Shown here in pieces: positions 47,330-55,321 of a stretch of 64,000 nt of DNA. Made by a program: the position numbers and the translations under genes. The notes under the pieces are model-generated. The model was not told the origin of the DNA and searched no databases. It saw only the letters and a program-made list of their open reading frames with translations. Origin of the DNA: Verrucomicrobiaceae bacterium (GTDB taxonomy: Bacteria; Verrucomicrobiota; Verrucomicrobiia; Verrucomicrobiales; Akkermansiaceae); the NCBI GenBank assembly GCA_027484055.1, contig JAIXQH010000042.1, positions 1-64,000 of the forward strand, in the 5' to 3' direction. Every line of letters begins with the position of its first letter. The stretch's first letter is position 1.

Positions 47330-48808
47330 GTGAACCGACGCTTTCAAATTGAAGACCTTATCGTTCAGGACTCCAGTGGGGTCGTGTTCCACGCCATCGA
47401 TCAGGAAACGGGACTGCCCGCAGCGGTGCGTCGACTATTCCCCTTCGGCGTGAATGGCGGTGGCCTCGAGGCCGCTGAACAAGAAGTTTACCAACTCGCG
47501 ATCGACAAAATCTCTGAGGTGAAACACCCCGCATTGCGTGCGATCCTGCTCGGCGGTATCGATCCTGTCGATGGTCTCCCCTTCTTGGCCACCGAGTGGG
47601 TGGAAGGTGCTACACTTCAATCCTTCGTCGATAAAGAACCCCTATCCTCCGGCGAAGCGGTCTATCTCATCACCCAAGCCTTGGAGGTTTGTGGGCTGCT
47701 ATCCCAAACACTTGGCCGCGAATCCGTCTGGGTGGAGACGGACTTGAGCACCATCGTCATCGGCGCTGCTGAAACAGGGCGGGGCTTTACCTTCTGGGTC
47801 TCACCGATGAAATGCATCGGTAAAAACGACGGCCAACGCGGCTTAGAACTGATCGTCACACTGGTCGAACACGTGCTAGGCTGGCGCGGTAAAGCGGTCT
47901 TGGATCAAGATGGCGGCGGCCTCGGGGCATGGCTTAAGTGGCTCCGCCTCACCGCCGCGAGCACCACCCTCGCTCAGGCACGTGAAAAGCTCGCCGAATC
48001 GCTGAACGTCGCAGCCCCCTCACCGGTTCGCAGGGCGGTGCGCCAAGCCGAGCGATCCACGCCGCCTAAGAAATTGAAAAAAAAGTCCAATTTACCCGCC
48101 ATCCTCGCGTCCATCACCGGTCTGGGTGTGCTGGCTCTCGGCGGCTTCGCCTTGATCAAGTGGAACGAATCCAAGCTCAGTAGCGAGTCCGTCGCGCTTG
48201 CTGCTACCGAAGCGCCAGCCACTGAAGAAAAACCCACCAAGAAGAAAAAATCCGCCCCAGTTGACCCAGAACCCGCCCCCAGCTCCGTGCCAGAGCCGGA
48301 ACCCACACCCGAGCCGGAAGTGATTGTAAATAAAGAAGCTCCCCCGGAAGCACCCATTGTGCTCGGCGAGACCCCTGAGCAAAAAGCCTCCCGCCGCGCT
48401 GCAGAGTTTTTAGACATCTCCCATAAGGAATCGACCGCCAAAGAAACCAAAGCCGCCGAACAAAAAGCCGCCATGACCGAAAAGGGCGGCGTCTTCACCA
48501 TCGCAGACTCCGAGCTTCTCGCCAGCCAAGACGGCACCGAGGTCTCACTCCAAGGCACGCTCTCGGAAATCGGTAAATCCACCTCGGGCAAGACACTCTA
48601 CCTCCTCTTTTCTCAAAAAGCCGCCCGCAACGAAGCTCGCGGCTCCATCCTCATCAGCAGCGTCGGTGCCGATCTCAGCGAAGAAAGCCTCACACCACTG
48701 ATCGGTAGAAATCTCAAGATCACCGGTAAAATCAAGGTGGACACCTTTCAAGGGATGAATCGCCCTTTGATCGTTATCGAAAAGCGCGCCTCCATCGAGC
48801 TGCAATGA
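47330..48808 (+). CDS. Pseudokinase-like membrane protein
   Basis: 492 residues from GTG 47330. Residues 5-230 align in layout with a eukaryotic-type Ser/Thr kinase: FQIEDLIVQDSSGVVFHAIDQETGLPAAVRRLFPF, then LATEWVEGATLQSFVD and a helical end. The invariant Lys is replaced by Arg (AAVRRL), and the HRD and DFG motifs are absent (SVWVETDLSTIVIG, FTFWVSP), so catalysis is unlikely. A membrane helix (LPAILASITGLGVLALGGFALI, about 260-280) follows, then a Lys/Pro/Glu-rich linker. The C-terminal beta domain (SLQGTLSEIGKSTSGKTLYLLFS...NLKITGKIKV) resembles an OB-fold. The stop overlaps the start of the GTPase gene by 4 bp. Confidence 0.65.
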   Translation: MNRRFQIEDLIVQDSSGVVFHAIDQETGLPAAVRRLFPFGVNGGGLEAAEQEVYQLAIDKISEVKHPALRAILLGGIDPVDGLPFLATEWVEGATLQSFVDKEPLSSGEAVYLITQALEVCGLLSQTLGRESVWVETDLSTIVIGAAETGRGFTFWVSPMKCIGKNDGQRGLELIVTLVEHVLGWRGKAVLDQDGGGLGAWLKWLRLTAASTTLAQAREKLAESLNVAAPSPVRRAVRQAERSTPPKKLKKKSNLPAILASITGLGVLALGGFALIKWNESKLSSESVALAATEAPATEEKPTKKKKSAPVDPEPAPSSVPEPEPTPEPEVIVNKEAPPEAPIVLGETPEQKASRRAAEFLDISHKESTAKETKAAEQKAAMTEKGGVFTIADSELLASQDGTEVSLQGTLSEIGKSTSGKTLYLLFSQKAARNEARGSILISSVGADLSEESLTPLIGRNLKITGKIKVDTFQGMNRPLIVIEKRASIELQ

Positions 48809-50262
48809 GCACCGGTTCTGCGCGACCGGTCGTCCCCACCTTCGCCGTCGTCGGGCGAGTGAATATGGGGAAATCTGCCGTCATCGCGACCTTGCTGGAG
48901 ATCGACGACAACGACCTGATCCGCATCAGCCCCACGCCCGGTGAGACCACCGCTTGCCAAGCTCATCCAGTGATCTTCGGCGGGCAAGAATGCCTACGCT
49001 TCATCGACACCCCTGGATTTTCCCGCCCCATCGAGGCCATGAGAGCGATCCAGGCACTCCACGGTGAAGGCACGCCCAGCCTCGCCACCTTGCGAACCTT
49101 TTGTGCCCAAGCCAGTGACGAATTCGGTGACGAAACACGCCTGCTCACCCCCCTCCTCGACGGTGCCGGCATCCTTTACATCGTCGATCCAGCCAAGCCA
49201 CTGCGGGATGATTTCCTCGCGGAAATGGAAATCCTCCGTTGGACCGGTCGACCGCGCCTCGCCGTCCTGAATCGTAGAAATGAATCACTTGGAAACGACG
49301 AAGATGCCTGGAGATCACATCTCGGTGCAGCCTTCAATCTCGTCCGTAGCTTCGACGCTCACCACGCCCGCTACGATGAACGCCTACGCCTGCTGAAAGC
49401 GCTGCTAGAAATCGAAGAAACCCAGCGACCCAAGTTAGAAGAAACCATCCGCCTCCTCGAAGGCGAGTGGGAACGCCGTCGCGAAGAAACGGCAGAGATC
49501 ATCATCACTTTCCTAGAATCCGCCTTCAGCCTCCGAGTCAGCGCGACCCTAGAAGAGCGAGATCTAAGTATCCCCGCGCGCCGCGAAAGGAAAACCACCG
49601 AACTCTCAAAACGCTACTTCGCCGCACTCTCCGACTTGGAACGCACCTGTTTCTCCCAGCTGCTCAACATTTACCGCCATCACCTGCTCACCGCACAAAC
49701 CCAGTTGGACAGCTTCCAAGAGATCGATCTCGAGAGCGGTGAAACTTGGACCAAGTGGGGACTTGGCCGGGGGCAGCTCGCCACCATTTCCGCCCTCCTT
49801 GGTGGCACCGCCGGATTGGCGGTGGATGCTGCGACTGGTGGACTCACTCATGGCGCAGGCAGCCTTTTTGGTGCCCTCAGCGGAGGCATCGCCGCGTGGT
49901 TCAAAGGTGGCAGCTTGCCCGACTTACGCATCTCGCTCAGAGGTGGGATGAAGCTGGCCACCGGGGAAGAAAAATCACTCGCACTCGGTCCCCCGAAAAA
50001 CCCGAATTTCCCTTGGGTTTTACTCGACGGAGTCCTCACCCGCTACCAAGCCATCCTCGCCCGTGCCCACGGTCGCCGCGATGAAGCGACACTCCACGGT
50101 CTCGCCGCAGGGTTCACCCGGGACTTCTCCGCCGAGCAGCGCAGCCTGCTTGGAAAATGGTTCAGCACCTGCCTCAAGGGCAGCCCCAACCGAGGATTAG
50201 AGCCCGAGGTTTACACCACCCTCATCCGCGTTTTGAAAGATGTGAATGAGCGCGCCCCATAA
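48805..50262 (+). CDS. DUF3482-type membrane-associated GTPase
   Basis: 485 residues. G1 loop GRVNMGKS (17-24) and G3 DTPGF (68-72) are clear, but the G4 NKxD is not (VLNRRNE at about 153), so guanine specificity is uncertain. The middle is a long helical region (about 190-320). The C-terminal part has two hydrophobic glycine-rich segments (ATISALLGGTAGLAVDAATGG, AGSLFGALSGGIAAWFKGG) that could insert in the membrane, as in the DUF3482 family. It is coupled to the pseudokinase gene by an ATGA overlap, suggesting the two work together. Confidence 0.7.
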   Translation: MSTGSARPVVPTFAVVGRVNMGKSAVIATLLEIDDNDLIRISPTPGETTACQAHPVIFGGQECLRFIDTPGFSRPIEAMRAIQALHGEGTPSLATLRTFCAQASDEFGDETRLLTPLLDGAGILYIVDPAKPLRDDFLAEMEILRWTGRPRLAVLNRRNESLGNDEDAWRSHLGAAFNLVRSFDAHHARYDERLRLLKALLEIEETQRPKLEETIRLLEGEWERRREETAEIIITFLESAFSLRVSATLEERDLSIPARRERKTTELSKRYFAALSDLERTCFSQLLNIYRHHLLTAQTQLDSFQEIDLESGETWTKWGLGRGQLATISALLGGTAGLAVDAATGGLTHGAGSLFGALSGGIAAWFKGGSLPDLRISLRGGMKLATGEEKSLALGPPKNPNFPWVLLDGVLTRYQAILARAHGRRDEATLHGLAAGFTRDFSAEQRSLLGKWFSTCLKGSPNRGLEPEVYTTLIRVLKDVNERAP

Positions 50263-50436: not shown

Positions 50437-52653
50437 ATGGCCTCCGATCTCGACACGCACTCTTCAAATCATCCATTTTCTGCCGCGATAAGCCGAGATG
50501 CCGAGGCGCTCCTCTGTCTAGCAGATGCACTGGACCTCAGAGTCAACAGCACATTTGCCCAGCGAGCTGCCAAACAAGCGGCAGATTCATACCCAGAAGA
50601 TGCACTAGAACGACTGGCGTCCGCCGCAGAAGTCGTCGGCATCCGGCTCAATGTGTTTCGGCAGGCTCTCGGGGATGCACTGTGGATGGCGCGAAATGAC
50701 CAGCCGCTTGTCATCTGGCAGGCTGATCCCGGCTGCTGGCTGCTTGTCCGGCGCTGCGGATTTTTCCGGGCGCATCTATCAGTCCCGGATCTGGGAAATG
50801 AATCAGAAGTCATCTCTCGGCGAGACTTGGTCAAGCGCTTGGGCTTGGCAAATTTAAATGAAGTCGTCGATCTCGCAGTCGCAGCGCCAGAGCGACATGC
50901 GGAGGGGATCCGCGGAAATGACGAGCAGCAAGCACCAGCCTTGTTGCCTGTCTATCACCTGCATGACGTGGCAGATGACCACCATCATGCTCACATTTCC
51001 CCGATTAAGCGCTTCTTCGGCTTGCTCCAGCCGGAGATGAAGGACGTCCGGACGCTATTGCTTTTCAGCGTCATAACCAGTCTGCTCTATCTGGCAGCTC
51101 CCTTGGCGGTGAGCGCCTTGGTGAGTAATTTAGCATTCGGCACCCAGAGCGCCCCGTTCCAACAAGCGCTGCTCGTCATCGCTCTAGCACTGTTTACCTT
51201 CCTCTTTCTTTCCGGGGTCATCCGGGGTTTGCAATACTATATCGCGGAAGTCATCCAGCGGCGGATGTTCGTCCGCTTGTCGGCAGACATGGCCTACCGA
51301 CTGCCGCGGGTGAAGGCGGACTCGCTGGATGGCATCCATGCTCCTGAGATGGTCAATCGCTTTTTGGACGTGGTGACCGTGCAGAAAGGCACTTCATTAC
51401 TCATGTTGGAAGGCTTCAACGTGGTGCTGGGGAGTGGTGTCGGGCTCATCGTCTTGGGCTTCTACCACCCTTTCCTGCTCGCCTTCACCGTGGGCTTGGT
51501 GCTGGCGCTGGCCTTCATCATCTTCGTTCTGGGACGGGGTGCGGTGGCTACAAGTATTCAAGAGTCGATTTGTAAATACGACATGGTCAACTGGCTAGAA
51601 GAGCTGGCCCGGTATCCTCGACTTTTCAAAGGGCGCGGAGGCTATGAAATGGCTACGGTGCGAGCGGATGAATTGGCCAGAGCTTTCCTACGCGCACGGA
51701 GCAGCCATTTCCGAATCCTCTTCGGCCAAATCAGCGGACTGATCTTGCTGGAAGTGGTGGCGAGCTCAGCTCTGTTGATGGTGGGTGGCTGGTTAGTACT
51801 ACAAGCCCAGTTGACACTAGGGCAACTGGTGGCCAGTGAGCTGATCGTCAGCTCGATCGTGGTTTCGCTCGCGAAGTTGGCGAAGAAGTTTGAAGCATGG
51901 TACGACATGCTCGCGGCGGTTGATAAGCTGGGCCACTTGGTCGATTTACAAATCGAAACAGAAGATGGAGATTTCCCACAAGTGCTCTCAGGTGGCTTGG
52001 AAGTATCAGTCGAGAATGTCAGTTTCGCTTACCCGGGTGGGCGGGAAATTCTCAGTGATGTGACTTTCATGGTCGCTTCAGGAGGGCGTGTGGCGCTGAC
52101 GGGGTCGCAGGGGAGTGGGTGCAGTACCTTGCTGGATTTATTGCTCGCGTTGCGCTTTCCGACAGGCGGCCACATCGCAATCAACGGCTTAGATGTCAGA
52201 TCCTGGTATTTGGAACAACTTCGCAACCATGTCATGCTGATCCGGTCCCTCGACATCGTCAACGGCACCATCGCCGAGAACGTCAGGCTCGGGCGGCCAG
52301 AAGTCGGGTTGGATACCGTTCAGAAAGTGCTGAAAGCGGTGGGCTTGGCGGAGGATATCCTCGTCTTGCCAGCGGGTGTGCAGACGCAGTTGGTAACGGG
52401 TGGTTTGACACTATCCTCACGGCAACGCACTCGCCTGTTGCTCGCGCGGGCTCTGGCGCTGCAACCCAAGTTGCTGCTGCTAGACGATATTTTCGATGGA
52501 ATGGACACCGCAAGCATGACCGAACTCACCGCCGTGATTCTGTCTCCCGAACTGCCGTGGACCGTGATCATCGGCACCCGTGATCCCCTCGTCGCTGCCA
52601 AATGTGGCCAGCAGGTGTCACTCGATCAATCTCTCACTTCTTCTGCCTCATGA
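50437..52653 (+). CDS. Type I secretion-like ABC exporter with degenerate ATPase domain
   Basis: 738 residues from ATG 50437; a TTG 60 bp upstream is unlikely. Residues 1-175 form an N-terminal domain that may be a remnant peptidase C39-like domain without active-site Cys/His. Six membrane helices follow (about 205-480). The nucleotide-binding domain starts near 525 (VENVSFAYPGGREIL). Its Walker A reads GSQGSGCST, so the essential Lys is Cys562. The signature is LSSRQ (659-663), the Walker B end is LLLLDD with Asp684 in place of the catalytic Glu, and the switch His is missing (IIGTRDP). First of three overlapping genes with HlyD and TolC partners. Confidence 0.85.
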   Translation: MASDLDTHSSNHPFSAAISRDAEALLCLADALDLRVNSTFAQRAAKQAADSYPEDALERLASAAEVVGIRLNVFRQALGDALWMARNDQPLVIWQADPGCWLLVRRCGFFRAHLSVPDLGNESEVISRRDLVKRLGLANLNEVVDLAVAAPERHAEGIRGNDEQQAPALLPVYHLHDVADDHHHAHISPIKRFFGLLQPEMKDVRTLLLFSVITSLLYLAAPLAVSALVSNLAFGTQSAPFQQALLVIALALFTFLFLSGVIRGLQYYIAEVIQRRMFVRLSADMAYRLPRVKADSLDGIHAPEMVNRFLDVVTVQKGTSLLMLEGFNVVLGSGVGLIVLGFYHPFLLAFTVGLVLALAFIIFVLGRGAVATSIQESICKYDMVNWLEELARYPRLFKGRGGYEMATVRADELARAFLRARSSHFRILFGQISGLILLEVVASSALLMVGGWLVLQAQLTLGQLVASELIVSSIVVSLAKLAKKFEAWYDMLAAVDKLGHLVDLQIETEDGDFPQVLSGGLEVSVENVSFAYPGGREILSDVTFMVASGGRVALTGSQGSGCSTLLDLLLALRFPTGGHIAINGLDVRSWYLEQLRNHVMLIRSLDIVNGTIAENVRLGRPEVGLDTVQKVLKAVGLAEDILVLPAGVQTQLVTGGLTLSSRQRTRLLLARALALQPKLLLLDDIFDGMDTASMTELTAVILSPELPWTVIIGTRDPLVAAKCGQQVSLDQSLTSSAS

Positions 52654-53933
52654 GCCACTCGACAAATCAACGTTTTGATTACAAGGGCAGTTTGCCCGCC
52701 ATCGCCCGAGCGGGTTCCTCCCGATTCCCTCGGATGGTGGCTCGCTACTTAGCGGTCGCCGCAGTCATCATCATGTTAGGAGTCTGGTTCCTGCCGTGGC
52801 AGCAGTTCGTCGGCGGTACCGGCAAGGTGATCGCCTTCGATCCCTTAGATCGGCGCATCAATGTTGAGGCTCCGGTCTCAGGAAATGTGCGCAAGCTCCA
52901 TGTGGTGGAAGGGCAGTCTGTGAAAAAGGGTGCGGTGATTGCAGAAATCGAGGACAACGACCCGAATCTACTTGTGAATTTGCGCGCGCAAAACGATGCC
53001 CTCATGGTCCGGAAAGCCGCCGCCTCGCAACGGGTCGATGACTTTGAATCTCAAATCCGCCAACAAGAGCAGGCAAAAGGTCAAGCGATCGATGCGGCAG
53101 CGCAACGCGTCGCAGCGGAAAAAATCACCGCTGAGATCGCAGTCTTAAACCTAAATCGAATCGCCGATTTACAAAAATCAGGTTTGGTCTCGACTCGTGA
53201 ATTCGAGGTCGCCCGACAACTCCAAGAGAGTTCCGATGCGAACTGGAAAGCCGCAGAAGCCAATCTGAAGCGCACGGTGAATGACTTTGATTCGACGATT
53301 TCCGGCACCCGCGCCCAGAAAGGAACGGCCCAGGCTGAAGTGGGCGCAGCGGAACGTGACATCAAGTCGCTCGACATCCAAATTAGCCAAAACATGCGCC
53401 AAGTGGTCGAATCACCACGCGACGGGATCGTGCTCAGTGTGCAGGCGACAGACGGCACCTATCTTCGCCCAGGCTCGCTGATCTGTGTGATCATCCCAGA
53501 AACGGATAGCCGTTTTGTGGAAATGTTCTTGGATGGAAACGACATGCCATTGATCACGCCGCGCACGACGAATGCACAGGGCATCGTAGTGCCGGGAAGT
53601 GATGTGAGAATCCAGTTTGAGGGCTGGCCAGCGATTCAATTCATCGGTTGGCCGAGTGTCGCCGTCGGCACTTTCGGTGCAGAGGTCGTCTTCATCGATC
53701 CCGCAGATGATGGGAAGGGCAAGTTCCGCGTGGTGGTGGCACCTAAGCCAGATCGCTTCACCAGAAACGGTCAGATCACAGAAGAGCGCTGGCCAAGCAA
53801 CCGTTTCCTCCGCCAAGGCGTGCGGGCAAATGGCTGGGTCCTCCTGAATCGTGTGCCGCTCTGGATGGAAATCTGGCGTCAAATCAACGGCTTCCCACCC
53901 GTCATTTCGAATGCTGAACCCACCCAGAAATGA
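52650..53933 (+). CDS. HlyD-family membrane fusion protein
   Basis: 427 residues from ATG 52650, whose ATGA overlaps the ABC gene stop. One N-terminal membrane helix (YLAVAAVIIMLGVWFLPWQQF), then the lipoyl half-motif (APVSGNVRKLHVVEGQSVKKGAVIAEIED), a long coiled-coil hairpin (about 110-250), the second half-motif (VVESPRDGIVLSVQATDGTYLRPGS), and a beta-barrel. Connects the inner-membrane ABC protein to the TolC-like channel. The substrate is unknown; no small secreted gene is adjacent. Confidence 0.85.
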   Translation: MSHSTNQRFDYKGSLPAIARAGSSRFPRMVARYLAVAAVIIMLGVWFLPWQQFVGGTGKVIAFDPLDRRINVEAPVSGNVRKLHVVEGQSVKKGAVIAEIEDNDPNLLVNLRAQNDALMVRKAAASQRVDDFESQIRQQEQAKGQAIDAAAQRVAAEKITAEIAVLNLNRIADLQKSGLVSTREFEVARQLQESSDANWKAAEANLKRTVNDFDSTISGTRAQKGTAQAEVGAAERDIKSLDIQISQNMRQVVESPRDGIVLSVQATDGTYLRPGSLICVIIPETDSRFVEMFLDGNDMPLITPRTTNAQGIVVPGSDVRIQFEGWPAIQFIGWPSVAVGTFGAEVVFIDPADDGKGKFRVVVAPKPDRFTRNGQITEERWPSNRFLRQGVRANGWVLLNRVPLWMEIWRQINGFPPVISNAEPTQK

Positions 53934-55321
53934 TGCTTAAGTCTCTGTGCCTTTTCCTACTGCCGCTACTCGCTCACGCAGCCACGGTGGAACCGATCTC
54001 GCTGGCCGCAGTGGTCAAGTCGGTCAACTCACAATACCCGCCCTACCTCATGGCCCTCATTGAGCGGGACATCGCCGCCGGACGACTCCGCCAAGCGCAG
54101 GGTGCCTTTGATTTAAACTTCCTCTCCAAGGGCAGTTTCAATCCGTCCGGGTTTTATGACGGATCATCGGCCGATTTCGTATTCGACCAGCCCCTGCCGT
54201 TTTGGGGTGGAAATGCCTTTGCCGGCTACCGAATCAGTAGCGGATATCTAGCGGACTACGACAAATCCCGGACTCAAGTCGATGGTGAACTCCGCATGGG
54301 ACTCCGCCTCAACTTACTCCGGGACGGCCCGATCGACTCGCGACGCGCCGCACTCTGGAAAGCTCGGCTAGACCAAGAAATCGCCGATCCCTTCATTCAA
54401 CGGCAGCGCTTGGACATTGTGCGCACGGCCTCACGCGCCTACGTCAACTGGCTGGCCATGGGCCTACGACTGGGAGTGACGGAAAATCTGCGGCGGATTG
54501 CACAAGACCGCGACGACTCCATCGGCCAGTTAGTCGCAGCTGGGCAATTGGCACCGATTGTAAAAGTGGACAATGAGCGCCTCGTCCTGAGCCGTGAGCT
54601 CGCCGTGGTGCAGGCGCGGCGGCGCTTCGAGGCGGCGAGCATCGAGCTCTCACTGTTCTTTCGCGATGCTCTAGGCCAGCCGATCCAGGTGACACGCCAG
54701 CACCTGCCCGCTCAATTTCCCAACGTGGAGCTACTGGTGAAGGAAAATTTAGGCCCCGCCACCAAGGCTGCGTACCGACTACGCCCAGAACTACGGCGCA
54801 TCAATCTCGTGGCACAAAAGTTCGGCATCGATGAAAAATTGGCAAAAAACGGCCTTCTTCCCAACCTCGATCTCACCGCCACGGTCAGTGAAGATATCGG
54901 CTCATCTCCCTACAAAGACTTGAATCAGACCGAGTCCATGCTGGGGCTCGAATTCAAAATGCCCTTGCCGCTCAACGAAGCAAATGGCCGGCTTGAAGTG
55001 GTCAAGGCCGAGCTAGCCCGCCTCGACAACGACGCCAAGTTCACCCGCGAACGCATCACCGCAGAGATCCTCGACGGCTGGTCCGCTATCTCCGCCGCCG
55101 CCGAACAAATCGGCCAGACACGTCGCAACGTCGAGCTTTCTGAGCAGCTAGAACGCGGGGAACGGGAGCGTTTTGAAAAAGGCGCATCAGACCTACTCGC
55201 CCTTCAAATCCGCGAGCAAGCAGCCTTCGACGCACGCCTGCTGGAAGTGGATGCACGTGCTGATTTTTTCCGCGCGAAGGCAGATTTTGAAGCCGCCACG
55301 GCAGAAGGATTAAAGCGCTAA
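53930..55321 (+). CDS. TolC-family outer-membrane efflux protein
   Basis: 463 residues, overlapping the HlyD gene by 4 bp. Signal peptide LCLFLLPLLAHAATVE. Two repeats of the outer-membrane efflux domain are visible (helical hairpins around 130-215 and 325-440), with the strand-containing parts FDLNFLSKGSFNPSGF and LLPNLDLTATVSEDIG. It would form the outer-membrane channel of the tripartite exporter. Last gene of the operon. Confidence 0.85.
   Translation: MMLKSLCLFLLPLLAHAATVEPISLAAVVKSVNSQYPPYLMALIERDIAAGRLRQAQGAFDLNFLSKGSFNPSGFYDGSSADFVFDQPLPFWGGNAFAGYRISSGYLADYDKSRTQVDGELRMGLRLNLLRDGPIDSRRAALWKARLDQEIADPFIQRQRLDIVRTASRAYVNWLAMGLRLGVTENLRRIAQDRDDSIGQLVAAGQLAPIVKVDNERLVLSRELAVVQARRRFEAASIELSLFFRDALGQPIQVTRQHLPAQFPNVELLVKENLGPATKAAYRLRPELRRINLVAQKFGIDEKLAKNGLLPNLDLTATVSEDIGSSPYKDLNQTESMLGLEFKMPLPLNEANGRLEVVKAELARLDNDAKFTRERITAEILDGWSAISAAAEQIGQTRRNVELSEQLERGERERFEKGASDLLALQIREQAAFDARLLEVDARADFFRAKADFEAATAEGLKR

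Follow-up and report, generated by a model that had tools for sequence, protein, structure and literature searches.

ABC exporters are defined by ATP hydrolysis. An operon in the window (the whole stretch of DNA analysed, 64,000 nucleotides of contig JAIXQH010000042.1 from a Verrucomicrobiaceae bacterium) encodes an exporter of this kind in which the catalytic residues of the ATPase are replaced. This locus raises the questions of whether the loss belongs to one genome or to a family, and of how export could be driven by such a protein.

The operon and its nucleotide sites

A type I secretion gene set was found together on the forward strand of the window, consisting of an ABC half-transporter of 738 amino acids with a degenerate nucleotide-binding domain (NBD; a putative pseudo-ATPase; 50437..52653), a HlyD-type membrane fusion protein (52650..53933), and a TolC-type outer membrane factor (53930..55321). 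The genes overlap by ATGA junctions at 52650-52653 and 53930-53933, as described in the initial annotation. The longest open reading frame for the HlyD-type protein opens at 52602, and the ATGA start at 52650 was preferred as the better fit. No substrate gene was recognised among the neighbours of the operon. Upstream lies a protein-kinase-like gene (weak similarity; 47330-48808), which has an ATGA overlap with a GTPase gene (DUF3482; 48805-50262). This pair was considered as an energy source and rejected because it is not conserved beside the operon in relatives.

The ABC protein has the layout of a type I (ABCB-like) exporter, in which an ABC_membrane domain of six helices is joined to an NBD fold in one chain. 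Pfam scores were 30 bits for ABC_membrane, which is weak, and 68 bits for ABC_tran, while the best NCBIfam models (NHLM, MsbA, and type I secretion permease/ATPases) all scored far below their cut-offs. The predicted structure matched PCAT1, HlyB, and TM287/288 in Foldseek. Whole-length Foldseek alignments to PCAT1 and HlyB placed a C39-like domain at the N-terminus (residues ~55-150; 50599..50886); the region had no match in Pfam, so its identity is proposed at the level of the fold, and it is missing from several more distant family members. The transmembrane domain (TMD; 50995..51960) is the most conserved part of the protein. It is preceded by a His-rich linker (the DDHHHAHISP region; 50956..50994). 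Most members are His-rich here, and nearly all verrucomicrobial members carry such a stretch before TM1 (e.g. DDHHHAH, GHGHGHGHGN), which may bind metal ions or serve as a flexible linker.

The degenerate NBD occupies 51994..52611. In its Walker A region (GSQGSGCST; 52102..52128) the Lys is replaced by Cys562 (codon TGC, 52120-52122), the ABC signature is LSSRQ (residues 659-663; 52411..52425), and in Walker B (LLLLDD; 52471..52488) Asp684 stands in place of the catalytic Glu. At the expected switch His, in IIGTRDP, the protein has Thr714-Arg715 (52576..52581); gapless alignment places Arg715 at the switch position and a shift by one places Thr714 there, with no His in either case. The Q-loop Gln is also lost. 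The four replacements named in the initial annotation were confirmed, and the reading frame is intact.

Loss of catalytic residues across three phyla

A sequence search found the ABC gene in 64 of 289 genomes of the same order (Verrucomicrobiales). All orthologues that have an NBD, about 60, carried another residue in place of the Walker A Lys (Cys, Ser, Thr, Ala, Val, or Ile), and the switch His was absent from all orthologues of the order. The closest relative, from an Akkermansiaceae MAG (L041; 79% identity), also has Cys at the Walker A position. Most orthologues kept the catalytic Glu, with Asp found in the window's own clade, and the P-loop glycines, the Walker B Asp, and a signature-like LSxxQ were mostly kept in this order. 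A sequencing error or an isolated oddity was rejected because about 60 orthologues share the loss of the Lys; the initial annotation had named relatives with the normal Lys and Glu, or an error at 52120-52122, as evidence that would count against it, and the orthologues were all found to be Lys-less. A few genomes, G141 (locus L068) and G111 (locus L078) among them, have an interrupted ABC frame, which reflects either local decay or faulty assembly. ActA/ActB-like genes of alternative complex III, recognised by eye, were seen upstream of the operon in L041, the closest relative, and in L065, from another genome of the genus to which the window belongs.

A wider search with the family profile, made against 388 genomes of the phylum and then against the class and order of two outliers, extended the family to another order and another class of Verrucomicrobiota. 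In one group from a single genus (G580) the Walker A Lys was kept and the catalytic Glu was changed to Gly, while in G496 the entire P-loop was wrecked; in the predicted structure of the latter, strands and helices nevertheless followed one another as in an NBD, at fair confidence. A tblastn search of plasmid records returned relatives in Persicobacter, Aureibacter, and Riemerella (Bacteroidota) and in Novosphingobium, and a further search returned additional relatives in sphingomonads. With the family profile, these plasmid-borne relatives reached 250-471 bits, whereas canonical exporters did not exceed about 140 bits. A tree of the membrane domain placed the family apart from 27 canonical exporters of Verrucomicrobiota, with a support of 1.0 for the canonical clade and 0.79 for the family clade.

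The residues lost differed from clade to clade. Persicobacter has the Lys with Walker B Asp changed to Asn, Riemerella has Walker B Asp changed to Lys, the sphingomonads have lost the P-loop, the Walker B Asp, and the Glu, and the P-loop is also gone in Aureibacter. None of the 89 sequences combined the Lys, the Walker B Asp, and the Glu, and the switch His was likewise present in 0 of 89, the NBD alignments being approximate at such distances. That the broken residues vary between clades speaks against a requirement for ATP hydrolysis. A family-wide loss of catalytic residues, as read from these alignments, is well supported, and the operon with a catalysis-dead ABC ATPase proposed in the initial annotation thereby extends to a trans-phylum family. 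No description of this family was found in the open-licence literature, and many proteins that carry the annotation "ABC transporter ATP-binding protein" probably lack ATPase activity.

Selection, invariant membrane residues and gene context

Identity was higher in the TMD than in the NBD in 96% of family pairs (means of 65.9% and 56.3%), whereas among canonical exporters of the same genomes, paralogues included, this was so in 2.5% of pairs and the opposite held in 97%. In orthologous canonical pairs at comparable TMD identity, NBD identity was mostly above or near that of the TMD. For recently diverged family pairs, omega was mostly 0.01-0.15 in both domains and usually somewhat higher in the NBD; dN/dS of canonical exporters was left out because synonymous sites were saturated. 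The low omega indicates that the NBD has been retained and that the constraint on it, though relaxed, is real; this bears out the earlier view of a frame under selection and led to the rejection of plain pseudogenisation as the cause of NBD decay.

Nine TMD residues were invariant across the three phyla in the sequences scored (R308, K317, H344, S377, K380, W386, Q431, E468, and Y489), while position 424 was His or Tyr and position 490 was Asp or Glu (H424 and D490 in the window). Canonical exporters mostly have hydrophobic or variable residues at these positions, R308 excepted. His344 lies in a YH motif (51466..51468), and Glu468 (51838..51840) lies in TM6 of the model; the latter is not Glu in canonical exporters and is also missing from HlyB and BmrA. 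A polar network that stays fixed despite the lost motor agrees with coupling to ions or with a specific polar substrate, as far as residue conservation can indicate.

LmrA and MsbA deprived of their NBDs offer a precedent for ion-driven transport, one that is disputed and has been reported largely from one laboratory. Ion-coupled transport was reported for the LmrA membrane domain without its NBD, and in LmrA with the Walker A Lys deleted currents remained and Glu314 of TM6 was essential (PMC6155054). For MsbA, substrate transport driven by ion gradients was claimed without the NBD, while full-length MsbA with the Lys deleted showed no transport in cells (PMC4979069). Glu314 of LmrA lies 74 residues before the Walker A Lys, and Glu486 of the family lies 76 residues before Cys562; position 486 was Glu in 78 and Asp in 4 of 83 sequences. 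A correspondence of Glu486 with Glu314, based on spacing to Walker A, is suggestive only. Exact homology of E468 with E314 was rejected, as the residue spacing does not support it.

The order ABC-HlyD-TolC was kept in nearly all members with loci long enough to judge, while other neighbours varied; in the G580 group, HlyD was the one partner gene recognised beside the ABC gene. Neighbours found repeatedly in relatives were DabA, DabB-like subunits, SulP transporters (one of them fused to a carbonic anhydrase), and LysR regulators. Eight DabA-ABC pairs lay within 10 kb of each other, against 0.27 expected. Of the 64 genomes that have the family, 50 also have DabA, compared with 28 of the 225 that lack it; these co-occurrence counts are confounded by kinship. 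A DabB-DabA-AmtB-GlnK-ABC-HlyD run was found in the second verrucomicrobial order (L090) and a DabB-DabA-ABC-HlyD-TolC run with LysR on a Sphingobium plasmid (L169). The clade that retains the Lys and lacks the Glu (L145-L149, L090) has AmtB and a PII protein upstream, and three DabA/DabB-linked loci (L066, L052, and L057) encode, next to the DabB-like antiporter subunit, a further one that is NuoM/N-like.

DabAB is a proton-driven vectorial carbonic anhydrase (PMC13144422). No DabA was found in the window genome, which has one SulP gene located away from the operon, so the carbon link is not a general rule. The linkage to inorganic-carbon genes in some lineages can be taken as a lead for the substrate, and the best contextual guess is an inorganic anion such as bicarbonate. 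Among the literature hits listed, no open-licence paper combined DabA with HlyD/TolC. The repeated association with DabA/DabB and SulP-carbonic anhydrase supplies a first concrete hypothesis on the substrate.

Proposed mechanism, its rivals and known systems

The catalytic set is lost in all sampled members while the membrane part and HlyD-TolC are conserved over three phyla. As the ATP engine has been lost family-wide and the membrane channel has been conserved, transport is probably driven or gated by something besides ATP hydrolysis. The reading preferred here, with a probability of about 0.5, is that the tripartite exporter belongs to a pseudo-ATPase family, works as a homodimer without hydrolysing ATP, and is either ion-coupled or gated. 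The ABC-type protein would sit in the inner membrane, with the HlyD adaptor and the TolC duct completing the exporter, and would most likely act as a homodimer. Its NBDs would keep their fold as a dimerisation or coupling scaffold and would not hydrolyse ATP, although those of the window clade may retain weak nucleotide binding. Transport would pass through the membrane domain, using the invariant polar residues, either as secondary transport on an ion gradient or as gated passive flux. Judging from the motifs kept, nucleotide binding or slow hydrolysis is possible, given the P-loop glycines, Walker B Asp, and LSxxQ of the window clade and the Walker B Glu of many Verrucomicrobiales. The broader proposal is tentative and more doubtful than probable: that ATP hydrolysis was abandoned across phyla and that the members are secondary-active tripartite exporters or conduits for bicarbonate-type anions, tied in several lineages to DabAB.

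Among the rivals, an ATP-gated conduit that does not hydrolyse, in which nucleotide binding opens or closes a passive HlyD-TolC path in the manner of CFTR or of degenerate sites, is rather unlikely. The nucleotide-binding residues that remain in Verrucomicrobiales, among which the A-loop Tyr is counted together with the P-loop glycines, Walker B Asp, and LSxxQ, agree with it, as does purifying selection on the NBD, and degenerate sites elsewhere bind ATP without hydrolysis (PMC7756269). The P-loop is gone, however, in the sphingomonads, Aureibacter, and G496, and the sphingomonads also lack the Walker B Asp, which means that the members cannot all share a nucleotide-gated mechanism. A heterodimer, in which the degenerate site here is paired with an ATP-hydrolysing canonical half-transporter encoded elsewhere, is improbable. 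Well-studied degenerate exporters (TAP, TM287/288, and Pdr5) keep one working site in the partner or second half (PMC7756269), and the signature LSSRQ/LSGNQ could complete the active site of a partner; but no second ABC gene was found in the conserved operon, and the signature and Walker B are both altered in distant members, which could hardly complete such a site. Seven genomes were found to encode 4 to 7 recognisable type I exporters each. Those with readable motifs, apart from the family, were canonical, with LSGGQ/LSGGE/LSVGE-type signatures, so none looks as a partner should, judging by known degenerate heterodimers; a partner whose signature is normal could escape such a comparison of sequences. 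Of the three options offered in the initial annotation, the non-ATP-driven gate or pump therefore fits best, the heteromer with another ABC subunit is disfavoured, and no positive evidence was found for ATP hydrolysis in a partner.

A noncanonical but real ATPase, with R603 (near the Q-loop) or R715 (at the switch) taking over from the Lys like a relocated catalytic lysine, is very improbable. R715 is invariant and R603 nearly so in sampled Verrucomicrobiales, and the Walker B Glu is kept by many members, but neither Arg is conserved outside the order, the switch His and Q-loop Gln are lost, and the window clade has lost the Glu as well. A decaying relic or sequencing error, which the broken frames of a few relatives could suggest, is scarcely credible and, where the whole family is concerned, already refuted, since the same loss recurs in independent assemblies and complete plasmids, omega is far below 1, the TMD residues are invariant, and the operon is intact over three phyla.

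To our knowledge, known degenerate-site ABC exporters have at least one working site per dimer, and among described transporters complete loss is indeed uncommon, as remarked in the initial annotation. The family resembles HlyB, LssB, PCAT1, and NHLM transporters in its TMD-NBD half-transporter and adjacent HlyD and TolC, and the window clade also resembles them in the C39-like domain by fold. It differs from them in the loss of the Walker A Lys, Glu, His, and Q-loop, in its own invariant TMD residues, in the NCBIfam scores far below cut-off, and in that no adjacent substrate gene was found. In the degenerate NBD1 of the fungal PDR transporter Pdr5, the Walker A Lys is also replaced by Cys, and the Glu and His are lost at the same site (PMC7756269). 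The Pdr5 chain has a second, intact site, whereas the operon here has one half-transporter gene, so that both sites of a homodimer would be dead. Degenerate catalytic residues are likewise shared with TM287/288, TmrAB, and TAP, which have a canonical site in their partner, while no partner was found here. The SecA_DEAD/HlyD/Peptidase_M50 loci (PMC4452313) are similar as T1SS-like proteins of PVC bacteria with unusual energisation, but they are a different type of locus without an ABC protein, and SecA was rejected on this ground as an alternative motor. The LmrA and MsbA constructs without NBD or Lys share with the family an acidic TM6 residue and a type I membrane domain, which here too would work without ATP hydrolysis; the position of E468 differs from that of E314, while E486 is close by residue count. 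What was engineered in those constructs is natural and conserved here, and with this family the long-disputed idea of an ABC membrane domain acting as a secondary transporter can be tested in nature.
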